A stretch of DNA of 45,909 nucleotides, taken from Gammaproteobacteria bacterium (GTDB lineage: Bacteria > Pseudomonadota > Gammaproteobacteria > GCA-001735895). The stretch spans positions 1 to 45,909 of the forward strand of contig JALSKD010000166.1 of NCBI GenBank assembly GCA_026989015.1, read 5' to 3'. Below, in pieces: positions 13,823-41,615 of the stretch (positions are counted from its first letter, which is position 1; each line of letters begins with the position of its first letter). The translations under genes and the position numbers were made by a program. The notes beneath the pieces are model-generated. The model did no database searches. It worked only from the letters and a program-made list of their open reading frames with translations, and was not told the DNA's origin.

Positions 13823-15025
13823 TTGATTCACGAGCTGCCACCCCTGTCGCTGTATGTGCACCTGCCCTGGTGTACACGCAAATGTCCCTATTGCGATTTC
13901 AACTCCCACGCCGCCGACGGCATGGACGAAAGCGCCTACATCGCCGCCCTGCTGGAGGATGCGCATAACGACCTGCCGCTGGTCTGGGGTCGCGGCATCC
14001 ACAGCATCTTCATCGGCGGCGGCACCCCGTCGCTGTTCTCCCCCGAAGCCATCGACCGCCTGCTGAGCGGCCTGCGCGCGCTGTTGCCGGTCTTCCCGTC
14101 CTGCGAGATCACCCTCGAAGCGAATCCCGGAAGCGCCGATGCCGCGCATTTCCGCGGCTACCGCGATGCCGGCGTCAACCGACTGTCGATCGGCATCCAG
14201 AGCTTCGACGACGAGCAGCTGCGCGCCCTCGGGCGCATCCATGACCGGCAGGCCGCGCTTGCGGCCGTGGACGCCGCGCGGCAGGCGGGGTTCGACAACC
14301 TCAACCTGGATGTGATGTTCGCCCTCCCCGGACAGTCCCTTGCGGGTGCCCTCGCCGACCTCGATCAGGCCATGGCGCTGCAGCCGGAGCACCTGTCCCA
14401 CTACCAGCTCACGCTGGAACCCAATACCCTGTTCCACAAGTACCCGCCCGAACCGCCCGATGACGACCGGGTCATCGACATGCAGGAGCGCTGCCTCGAG
14501 CGTCTGGATGCAGCAGGATACCAGCACTACGAAGTCTCGGCCCATGCCCGCTCCGACAGCCTTCGTTGCCGACACAACCTCAACTACTGGCGCTTCGGCG
14601 ATTACCTCGGCCTGGGCGCAGGCGCCCACGGCAAGATCACACTCCCCGCCGAACAGGGCATACTGCGCCGCATTCGTTTGCGTCACCCTCAGCGTTACCT
14701 GAACGCCCGTGGCGCGGAGCGGATCTCCGAGGAACGCGCGTTGACCGCCCCCGACCGGGTGTTCGAATTCATGCTCAATGCCTTGCGACTGAACGAGGGC
14801 TTCGAACCCGCGCTGTTCGAGCAGCGCACCGGCCTGCCGCTGCACAGTATCCAGCCGCTGCTCGACCGGGCCCGCACGCGGGAACTGCTGGAAACCGAAG
14901 ACGGCCACATACGGCCAACCGAGCTGGGCCGCCGTTTCCTCAACGACCTGCAAGCGGAATTTCTCGAACCGGAGCTGCACGTGACAGCACCGGGACAGGT
15001 CGTTCCGGACACCCGTTTCGACTGA
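13823..15025 (+). CDS. hemW: radical SAM heme chaperone HemW
   Basis: The 400-residue protein carries the radical SAM cluster motif C-x3-C-x2-C as WCTRKCPYCDF (Cys17, 21, 24) after the conserved PPLSLYVHLPW start. Other HemW blocks are FIGGGTPSLF, TLEANPGS, RLSIGIQSFDD, NLDVMFALPGQ and the LGLGAGAHG site. HemW delivers heme to respiratory enzymes; the older coproporphyrinogen oxidase label is not supported by the CxxxCxxC context. The only sensible start is TTG at 13823, 7 nt after the rdgB stop. It closes the rph operon and is followed by the gene-free stretch 15026-15493. Confidence 0.95.
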   Translation: MIHELPPLSLYVHLPWCTRKCPYCDFNSHAADGMDESAYIAALLEDAHNDLPLVWGRGIHSIFIGGGTPSLFSPEAIDRLLSGLRALLPVFPSCEITLEANPGSADAAHFRGYRDAGVNRLSIGIQSFDDEQLRALGRIHDRQAALAAVDAARQAGFDNLNLDVMFALPGQSLAGALADLDQAMALQPEHLSHYQLTLEPNTLFHKYPPEPPDDDRVIDMQERCLERLDAAGYQHYEVSAHARSDSLRCRHNLNYWRFGDYLGLGAGAHGKITLPAEQGILRRIRLRHPQRYLNARGAERISEERALTAPDRVFEFMLNALRLNEGFEPALFEQRTGLPLHSIQPLLDRARTRELLETEDGHIRPTELGRRFLNDLQAEFLEPELHVTAPGQVVPDTRFD

Positions 15026-15059: not shown

Positions 15060-15270
15060 TTATACACAGATCAGAAACTTTACGAAACTGTCAAGCCCTC
15101 AGCGAAAAAAAATGACAAGACCATGACGTGTTTTCTTAAGTCATTGTTTTTTAATATGTTTTATGAGTTGATCAAAAAATGACACATCTAACAGAAAGCC
15201 TTTGTCCAACAGCACCCGGGGGCTTCTTCGACCTTTTACCCACAGACTTATCCACAGGAATTGTGGATAA
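15060..15270. other. AT-rich DnaA-box cluster (candidate replication origin or DnaA-binding locus)
   Basis: This part of the 468-bp gene-free gap 15026-15493 holds the R2-type box TTATACACA (15060-15068, followed at once by GATC), an exact box TTATCCACA (15248-15256), an exact inverted box TGTGGATAA (15262-15270) and a one-mismatch box TTACCCACA (15236-15244). Between them, about 15100-15187 is strikingly AT-rich for this genome and contains two copies of A6TGACA (15107-15117 and 15174-15184) and a second GATC at 15170. AT-rich DNA with repeats beside clustered DnaA boxes is the layout of bacterial origins. The usual markers dnaA, dnaN, mnmG and rpmH are absent, so a DnaA-regulated or titration site is the main alternative. 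The rest of the gap shows a palindrome at 15329 and nothing else recognised. Confidence 0.5.
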
Positions 15271-15328
15271 ACAAAGCAACCACGACGGCACAAGGGTTTC
15301 CGGCCAACACCTCAGTCGGTACTTTAAC

Positions 15329-15493: not shown

Positions 15494-15739
15494 ATGAAAC
15501 AAGGTATTCACCCCGAATATAGGGAAGTCGTATTCCAGGACACGTCCACCGATTTCGCCATCCTCACCCGCTCGACCATCGAGACCCGAGAGACCATCAA
15601 ATGGGAAGACGGCAACGAATACCCTCTGGTGAAGCTGGAGGTATCCAGCGCATCGCATCCCTTCTACACCGGCAAGCAGCATGTTCTGCAATCTGCGCGC
15701 CAGGTGGACAAGTTCCGCGAGCGTTACGGCAAGAAATGA
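15494..15739 (+). CDS. rpmE2: 50S ribosomal protein L31 type B (zinc-independent)
   Basis: The 81-residue protein begins [19 protein letters not shown] and ends [29 protein letters not shown], the type B L31 pattern. It has no Cys at all, so the zinc-binding CxxC of type A L31 is missing, as expected for the C-minus paralogue. In E. coli the type B copy replaces the zinc form under zinc starvation, under Zur control; no Zur box was recognised here. An in-frame extension to 15371 is low-complexity and is excluded. The ATG lacks a clear ribosome site. A strong terminator follows. Confidence 0.93.
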
Positions 15740-38299: not shown

Positions 38300-41136
38300 C
38301 CGATTACAAACCGACCCTGAACCTGCCCGCCACGCCCTTCCCCATGCGCGGAAACCTGGCCAAGAACGAGCCCGCCCGCCTCAAGCGCTGGTACGAGAAG
38401 GGACTGTACCGCCATATCCGTGAGGCCTGCGACGGCCGGCCGCGGTGGGTGCTGCACGACGGCCCGCCCTATGCCAATGGCGACATCCACATCGGCCACG
38501 CGGTCAACAAGATCCTCAAGGACATCATCGTCAAATCGCGCACCCTGGCGGGCTATGATGCGCCCTATGTGCCCGGCTGGGATTGCCACGGGCTGCCCAT
38601 CGAACATGCGGTGGAAAAAAAGATCGGCAAGGCCGGCATCGCGGTGGAGCCGCGCGAATTCCGCAAGGCCTGCCGCGCCTTTGCCCACGAGCAGATCGAG
38701 AACCAGAAGAAGGATTTCATCCGCCTCGGCGTGCTCGGCGACTGGGACAAGCCCTACCTGACGATGAACTTCGACACCGAGGCCAACATCGTGCGCGCGC
38801 TCGGCAAGATCATCGAAAACGGTCATCTGGCCAAGGGCGTCAAGCCGGTGCACTGGTGCACCGATTGCGGATCCGCACTGGCCGAGGCCGAAGTGGACTA
38901 TAAGGACAAGGATTCCTGCGCCATCGATGTCAAGTTCCCGGTCAAGGACGAGGAGGATTTCTTCCGGCGGTTCCACGAGGTGCCCGGCCACCACGGCACC
39001 GGCCCGCTGTCGGTGGTGATCTGGACCACCACGCCCTGGACCCTTCCGGCCAACCTGGCGGTGGCGGTCAACCCCGGGTTCGAATATGTGGTGGTGCAGG
39101 CGTTGACCGAACACGGGCCGGAACGGCTGATGGTCGCAGAGGACATGCTCAAGGAAACCATGGACCGCTGGGGCATCGAAGACTACTCGGTGCTGGCCTA
39201 TGGCAAGGGTGAGGCGCTGGAGGGCACAAAACTGCATCACCCCTTCTATCCGCGCGAATCGCTGATGATTCTCGCCGACCACGTCACCCTCGACGCCGGC
39301 ACCGGCTGCGTGCACACCGCTCCGGGCCACGGACAGGACGACTTCGTGGTCGGCCAGAAATACGGCCTCGACGCCTACAACCCGGTGGGCGACGACGGCC
39401 GTTTCCTGCCTGACACGGAGATCTTCGCCGGCGAACATGTCTTCAACGCCAACGAACACGTGATCGATGTGCTCAAGGGTCACAAGGCGCTGCTGCACGA
39501 GGAGAAACTGACCCACAGTTACCCGCACTGCTGGCGCCACAAGACGCCGATCATCTTCCGCGCCACACCGCAGTGGTTCATCAGCATGGACCAGAACGGG
39601 CTGCGCCAGACCGCGCTCAGCGAGATCCGCAAGGTACGCTGGATCCCCGAATGGGGCGAAGCGCGCATCACCGGCATGATCGCCAACCGCCCCGACTGGT
39701 GCATCTCCCGCCAGCGTTTCTGGGGCGTACCGATCCCGCTGTTCATCCACAAGCAAACCCAGGAACTGCACCCGAACACCCTGGGGCTGATCGAGCAGGT
39801 GGCACAGCGCATGGAGAAGGAAGGCATCGATGCCTGGTTCGAGCTGGACCCTGCCGACCTGCTGGGCGACGATGTGGACAACTGGACCCGTGTCACCGAC
39901 ACCCTCGATGTCTGGTTCGATTCCGGAACCACCTACTACAGCGTTCTGATGCAGGATGAACGCTGTCACTTCCCGGCCGAAATGTACCTGGAAGGCTCCG
40001 ACCAGCACCGCGGCTGGTTCCACTCCTCGTTGCTCACCTCCAGCGCGATGAACGGCTGTGCCCCCTATACCTCGGTGCTGACCCATGGCTTCACCGTCGA
40101 TGCCAAGGGCATGAAGATGTCCAAATCGGTGGGCAATGTGGTGGCCCCGCAAAAGGTAACCGATACCCTGGGTGCCGACATCCTGCGCCTGTGGGTGGCT
40201 GCCACCGACTATTCGGCGGAGCTGTCGATCTCCGACGAGATCCTCAAGCGCACCGCCGATGCCTACCGCCGCATCCGCAACACGATGCGTTTCCTGCTCG
40301 CCAACATGAACGGCTTCGACCCGGCTGAACACGCAGTAGCACCGGACAACCTGATCGCCCTCGACCGCTGGGTGGTACACCAGACCCTGGAATTGCAAAA
40401 AGAGCTGCAGGACCTGTACGAGAACTACCAGTTCCATGTCGCGGTACAGAAGATCCACAACTTCTGCTCCGAAACCCTGGGCGGCTTCTATCTGGATGTC
40501 ATCAAGGACCGTCAGTACACCACCCCGGCCGATTCACTGCCGCGCCGCTCCTGTCAGACGGCGATGCATCATGTGGCCGAGGCCATGGTGCGCTGGATCG
40601 CGCCGATCCTCAGCTTTACCGCCGACGAGGTCTGGGAAAACCTGCCGGGCGAGCACGAGGAATTCGGCGCGTTTACCGCCACCTGGAGCGAGCAGCTGTT
40701 CCCCTACCGGCACCCGGAGATCGATCTCGCATTGTGGGATCAATTGCTGGCGCTGCGCGAGCAGGCTTCGGTACTGCTCGAAAACCTGCGCCAGGAAGGG
40801 CGCATCGGTTCCAGTCTCGATGCCGAACTGACGATTTACGCCGACGAAGAACTGCTCAACCGGCTCGACATCCTCGCCGACGAACTGCGTTTTGTGCTGA
40901 TCACTTCCGAAGCCACTCTGGCCCCGCTGTCGGAAGCCCCGGCCGACGCCGAGATCCAGTCCATCGACGGCGACAGCCTGCAATACGCGCTCGCGGCGGA
41001 ACCCAGCCCGCATCCGAAGTGCGTGCGCTGCTGGCATCACCGCGCCGATGTCGGCAGCGACCCGCAGCACCCCGAACTCTGCGGCCGTTGTGTGGAGAAT
41101 GTCGAGGGCGAGGGCGAGCGCCGGCGCTACGCCTGA
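38296..41136 (+). CDS. ileS: isoleucine--tRNA ligase
   Basis: The 946-residue class Ia synthetase charges tRNA-Ile. It has the HIGH motif ([15 protein letters not shown]), the large editing domain, KMSKS in [12 protein letters not shown], and the C-terminal zinc finger CVRCWHH then CGRC. The length fits bacterial type IleRS. Translation starts at GTG 38296, overlapping the ribF stop by 4 nt, and its stop overlaps the lspA ATG by 1 nt. Confidence 0.98.
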
Positions 41137-41615
41137 TGCTGCGCTATCTGTGGATCAGCGCGCTGGTGGTGCTGCTTGATCAGGCGAGCAAGCACTATGC
41201 CGACCACGTACTCGACTATCACCGGCCGGTGGAAGTCATACCCGGTCTGTTCGAGTGGTACCTGTCCTACAATACCGGCGCGGCCTTCAGTTTTCTGGCC
41301 GGCGCCGGAGGATGGCAACGCTGGTTTCTGCTTGGCCTGGCGCTGGTCATCAGCGCCGTACTCATCGGCTGGATGCGCAAGCTGGGGCGGCATGAACGGC
41401 TGACTGCGGTGGGACTGGCGATGATCCTTGGCGGCGCCATCGGCAATGTCATCGACCGCGCTCTGCTCGGTCATGTCATCGATTTCATACAGGTCTGGCT
41501 GGGCAGCTACCCCTGGCCGGCCTTCAATCTGGCCGACAGTTTCATCACCATCGGCGCGGTACTGCTGATCGGCAGCGGCCTGCTCGACTCGCACAAGGAG
41601 GACTCATCCTCATGA
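41136..41615 (+). CDS. lspA: lipoprotein signal peptidase (signal peptidase II)
   Basis: The 159-residue inner-membrane aspartyl protease cleaves prolipoprotein signal peptides. Family blocks are LDQASKHY, YNTGAAFSFL, GAIGNVIDR with one catalytic Asp, VIDFIQV and FNLADSFITIGA with the second Asp. Four hydrophobic helices are visible. The start ATG lies in the TGATG at the ileS stop. The fkpB ATG overlaps its stop by 4 nt. Confidence 0.97.
   Translation: MLRYLWISALVVLLDQASKHYADHVLDYHRPVEVIPGLFEWYLSYNTGAAFSFLAGAGGWQRWFLLGLALVISAVLIGWMRKLGRHERLTAVGLAMILGGAIGNVIDRALLGHVIDFIQVWLGSYPWPAFNLADSFITIGAVLLIGSGLLDSHKEDSSS

Follow-up and report, generated by a model that had tools for sequence, protein, structure and literature searches.

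A probable DARS2-like DnaA-reactivating sequence in the hemW-rpmE2 interval of a gammaproteobacterial genome

DnaA-reactivating sequences (DARS) have been described for E. coli and for nearby species of Vibrio, Shewanella and Yersinia, and DARS2 has been kept, in comparable genome positions, by beta- and gammaproteobacteria close to E. coli. In E. coli itself, the ADP-DnaA that occupies the core DnaA boxes loses its ADP once IHF and Fis have bound, DnaA lying head to head on boxes I and II, and the apo-DnaA then takes up ATP (PMC4245941, PMC8682772, PMC5742627). DARS1 (bioD-uvrB) is active without protein activators according to the later DARS literature. The two IHF sites of DARS2, IBS1 and IBS2, were published as lying 3 bp apart (PMC4245941), as do the IHF-consensus matches found in its sequence (NC_000913.3) at -87 and -71, all offsets here being numbered from the base at which box III starts; the same sequence holds, at -125, a match to the Fis consensus and, at -185, an exact DnaA box. 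No paper on DARS copies linked to hemW or priA was found in a literature search that left most subscription papers uncovered.

The genome considered here consists of 198 contigs (2.9 Mb), one of which, 45.9 kb in length, is the window, that is, the whole stretch of DNA that was analysed. As the original prediction had it, an intergenic cluster of four DnaA boxes, at 15060 (+), 15236 (+), 15248 (+) and 15262 (-), with a GATC beside the first, is flanked by hemW on the left (13823-15025, + strand; TIGR00539, 362 bits) and by rpmE2, encoding a type B L31 protein, on the right (15494-15739, + strand; PRK01678, 134 bits). Allowing one mismatch, the box sequence TTATCCACA occurs 10 times in the window against 3.7 expected, and four of these matches fall within 211 bp. 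Further near-consensus boxes, which may be chance matches, lie in the window at 39743-39751, 39873-39881 and 41091-41157.

The three rightmost boxes, identified by a box search, form a compact core that reads TTACCCACA-gac-TTATCCACA-ggaat-TGTGGATAA, in which box III (TTACCCACA, 15236-15244, + strand) is followed after 3 bp by box II (TTATCCACA, 15248-15256, + strand) and, after another 5 bp, by box I, an inverted TTATCCACA (15262-15270, - strand). The boxes have the same order and orientation, and the two spacers the same lengths, in E. coli DARS1, which on the reverse strand reads TAATACACA-tgg-TTATCCACA-ggaat-AGTGGATAA and even shares the II-I spacer GGAAT, and in DARS2, which reads TTCTTCACA-act-CTATCCACA-gaaaa-GGTGAATAA. 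Against the core pattern DARS1 has 1 mismatch and DARS2 has 3, the core boxes of the window being stronger than those of DARS2, while E. coli datA has 6 at best and E. coli oriC has 8. The pattern with its exact spacing was matched at up to 3 mismatches in none of 20 shuffled windows, and patterns with a II-I spacer of 4 or 6 bp had no match in the same loci. The clustering of the three boxes is far beyond chance.

Upstream of the core, the sequence is ordered in a way that has been kept in the hemW-linked copies of the genome's family, for which 18 loci were collected and whose layout is common to all that were examined. The fourth, distal box (TTATACACA, 15060-15068, + strand), which the original prediction had called R2-type, lies at -176; in all 18 hemW loci a box TTATNCACA occurs in + orientation at -175 to -177, 17 times exactly. 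It is followed by a conserved TGTCAA motif (15089-15094, + strand), present as TGTCAA or GTCAA at about -146 throughout the 18 loci. Next comes a putative IHF-binding site, TAAGTCATTGTTT (15137-15149, - strand), one mismatch away from the consensus YAANNNNTTGATW; in the family this consensus is found at -98/-99 with at most 1 mismatch in 18 of 18 loci and exactly in 11. Between it and the core lies a Fis-like site, GATCAAAAAATGACA (15170-15184, 1 mismatch to the consensus GNNYANNNNNTRNNC), whose counterpart at -66 occurs with at most 1 mismatch in 16 of the 18 loci, the assignment resting on a degenerate consensus such that the site could belong to another dimeric protein; column conservation across the 18 loci extends this block into CATCTAACAGAAAGCC (15185-15200). 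An AT-rich repeat tract had been predicted in this interval and is indeed there: about 15104-15193 is 73% A+T, the highest of any 90-bp stretch in the whole 46 kb, and holds A6TGACA at 15107-15117 and again at 15174-15184. The second repeat is part of the Fis-like site and of a block conserved among relatives; the first aligns merely with a generally A-rich stretch. Downstream of the core, the motif ACTTTAAC (15321-15328, + strand) is conserved at an offset of about +86 in the family's hemW and priA copies, in both of which it lies about 51 bp past box I.

The likeness to DARS2 reaches beyond the way in which the three core boxes are ordered, oriented and spaced, to an IHF site that flanks box III about 60-100 bp from the core (-98 in the window, -87 for IBS1), an extra high-affinity box near -180 and a Fis consensus nearby. 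There are also clear differences. DARS2 lies upstream of mutH (mutH/ygdR) and the window element between hemW and rpmE2; the window has a single IHF consensus; its distal box is co-oriented with boxes II and III, whereas the corresponding E. coli box points the opposite way; and the essential Fis sites of DARS2 (FBS2-3) lie beyond the IHF site, whereas the conserved Fis-like site here is placed on the core side of the IHF site, either replacing one beyond it or in addition to it. An exact Fis consensus beyond the IHF site occurs in none of the hemW loci; at -121 one is present in 6 of 22 priA loci. DARS1 is close in core geometry but yielded no IHF match over the 260 bp that were scanned, in contrast to the IHF and Fis-like sites of the window. 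In our judgement the region 15060-15270 is probably a DARS-type DnaA-reactivating sequence whose design is closest to that of E. coli DARS2, in a variant whose Fis-like site is nearer to the core than the IHF site is; lying between hemW and rpmE2, with its Fis-like and IHF sites in a different order and its distal box co-oriented, it would be a relative of DARS in a new genomic setting. The location also agrees with that of DARS elements, which are intergenic and conserved and lie between oriC and the terminus instead of at oriC: the element is intergenic and conserved, shows no skew switch and, to go by the cores of closed class relatives, would lie far from dnaA. The fact that the IHF and Fis-like sites of the window are each 1 base off consensus counts against this assignment, as do the position of the Fis-like site and the orientation of the distal box. 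The original prediction had offered a DnaA regulatory site as an alternative to an origin, and it is this alternative that gains support, made specific by the DARS1/DARS2 layout of the boxes.

A DNA search recovered the site region in most members of the genome's family, and the core, allowing up to 2 mismatches, is present in 40 of 41 family genomes, nearly all of which have two cores, and in 295 of 369 class genomes, or about 80% of the Gammaproteobacteria sampled; some sites are counted on both strands because the II-I pair is nearly palindromic. A reversed control core had no match in the 369 gammaproteobacterial genomes. Conservation of the boxes in close relatives, which had been named as a check on the prediction, proved strong, and we therefore regard the site as real.

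Upstream of priA the second copy is present at 22 loci. The family accounts for 21 of these, among them the locus of the genome studied here, where a DARS-like core in the hemH-priA gap (L033, 1719-1753; G000:C17:23718-23752) reads TTGTCCACA-gag-TTTTCCACA-gaaaa-TGTGGATAA and is accompanied by an exact IHF consensus at -98. The recurrence of the same layout at hemH-priA means that the element is not tied to one gene. In the family's priA copies the distal box takes the form GATATNCACA, at about -178. As for the neighbour of the hemW-linked copy, rpmE2 (80-96% identical in relatives) adjoins the element in 16 of the 18 loci and is absent beside it in two relatives (L037, L038).

The upstream sites recur well outside the family. 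Among 34 class-level loci from other families, the IHF consensus is found at -100 to -96 with at most 1 mismatch in 20, against 0.2 in shuffles, and exactly in 9, against 0.02, an enrichment of about 100-fold for the IHF site; an exact Fis consensus at -67 to -63 occurs in 12 (0.14 in shuffles), and an exact box in + orientation at -180 to -173 in 16 (0.03 in shuffles), with no box in - orientation in that interval in any of the 34. All three sites are present together in 10 loci. Cores without an IHF match at -98 (14 of 34) or without a distal box (18 of 34) also exist, and some of these may thus be a different type of site. Nine of the 34 loci adjoin priA, which suggests an old association with that gene, and two adjoin hemW. 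Beyond the class, a few of the phylum's families have the core and many lack it. A HemW alignment search matched only contigs of other lineages, none of which contains the core. One of the phylum's families outside the class, f198 (G437), has many DARS-like cores per genome, often ending in TGTGGATAG, with up to 9 strand matches in one genome of 3.1 Mb.

By analogy with E. coli, we infer for the element an ADP-to-ATP exchange activity on DnaA. ADP-DnaA bound head to head on boxes I and II, together with box III, would lose its ADP, and the apo-DnaA would leave and pick up ATP, such that ATP-DnaA would be regenerated before initiation. A bend introduced by IHF at -98 could fold the upstream arm back onto the core, a geometry suggested by the IHF site being about equally far from the distal box and from box III; the fold would carry Fis and the DnaA of the distal box to the core and might in this way place the reaction under the control of cell cycle and growth phase. 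The genome encodes DnaA, IhfA, IhfB, HU and Fis, the last in the usual dusB-fis-purH order, as well as an Hda-like protein (187 bits, with a cut-off of 195), and with the genes for DnaA, the Hda-like protein, IhfA, IhfB and Fis at hand, the known DARS2 partners are available.

We next weigh the readings that compete with a DARS. Since any cluster of high-affinity boxes will also titrate DnaA, the site might hold DnaA, or promote hydrolysis of its ATP, on boxes bent by IHF and so block re-initiation. In E. coli datA, which stimulates DnaA-ATP hydrolysis, DnaA boxes 2 and 3 flank an IHF site, and the window resembles datA in having an IHF site set between high-affinity boxes at fixed distances (box, IHF site, box), away from oriC. 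However, the invariant III-II-I core with its 3- and 5-bp spacing is a DARS hallmark that E. coli datA lacks, and plain titration would need neither exact spacing nor fixed positions of IHF and Fis-like sites, nor a constant count of roughly two per genome. We therefore regard a datA-like or titrating function as unlikely.

Considerably less probable still is a promoter region controlled by DnaA, IHF and Fis, serving rpmE2 here and priA at the second locus. Both rpmE2, whose start codon lies 223 bp beyond box I, and priA do have the element upstream of them, pointing the same way with respect to each gene, but a consensus scan found no sigma-70-like promoter, the element remains beside hemW in the two relatives in which rpmE2 is absent, and in other families the same element adjoins unrelated genes. 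The rpmE2 promoter was rejected on the missing promoter match and on the persistence of the element without rpmE2.

DnaA boxes beside an AT-rich unwinding tract define a bacterial oriC, usually near dnaA, mnmG or rpmH, and the original prediction had considered that the site could be an oriC that had left these neighbours. On this reading DnaA would open the AT-rich tract and load the helicase. The boxes do adjoin the 90-bp stretch with the highest A+T content in the window, an IHF site is present as in E. coli oriC, and the genome's own dnaA locus, on another contig in the normal context between rpmH and dnaN, has few boxes. Several findings nevertheless speak against this reading. GC skew, which had been proposed as a check and was followed over the window and stretches of two relatives, came out against an origin: it is equally negative on both flanks of the site (-0.059 and -0.052, up to 20 kb each), no switch occurs at the orthologous site in two family relatives with contigs of 155-165 kb, and the sole change among the tested stretches is a weak negative-to-positive one at dnaA in one relative. 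Nor would an origin be expected in two copies per genome, away from dnaA, mnmG and rpmH; in six genomes of the class that consist of a single contig, the distance between cores and dnaA is about 0.1-1.3 Mb. The core, moreover, does not match E. coli oriC. Skew, copy number and the separation from dnaA accordingly led us to reject an oriC, to which we give hardly any credence. Rfam returned only sub-threshold chance matches (PYLIS_3, 25 bits against a gathering threshold of 38; RsmW, 26 against 52).

Returning to the DARS reading, the class-level loci raise the question of how general the design is. A module made of a distal box at -177, an IHF site at -98, a Fis-like dimer site at -66 and the core, present about twice per genome and frequently adjoining priA or hemW, could be class-wide: a widespread, perhaps ancestral, IHF-looped machine for recharging DnaA, of which E. 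coli DARS2 would be a rearranged descendant. On this wider proposal we find ourselves evenly divided. The occurrence of the same core in about four-fifths of the sampled Gammaproteobacteria, in many of them with fixed IHF, Fis-like and fourth-box geometry, suggests that replication control in this class generally includes dedicated DNA sites at which ADP-DnaA is recharged. The alignment predicts which bases and spacings matter, and these predictions are directly testable.

Two further features were noted in the priA copies. A TTGACA is conserved shortly ahead of the distal GATATNCACA box (L011, L014-L016, L019-L024 and L030-L031 being among the loci concerned), and a TTAGC motif lies about 28 bp past box I and recurs in other families.
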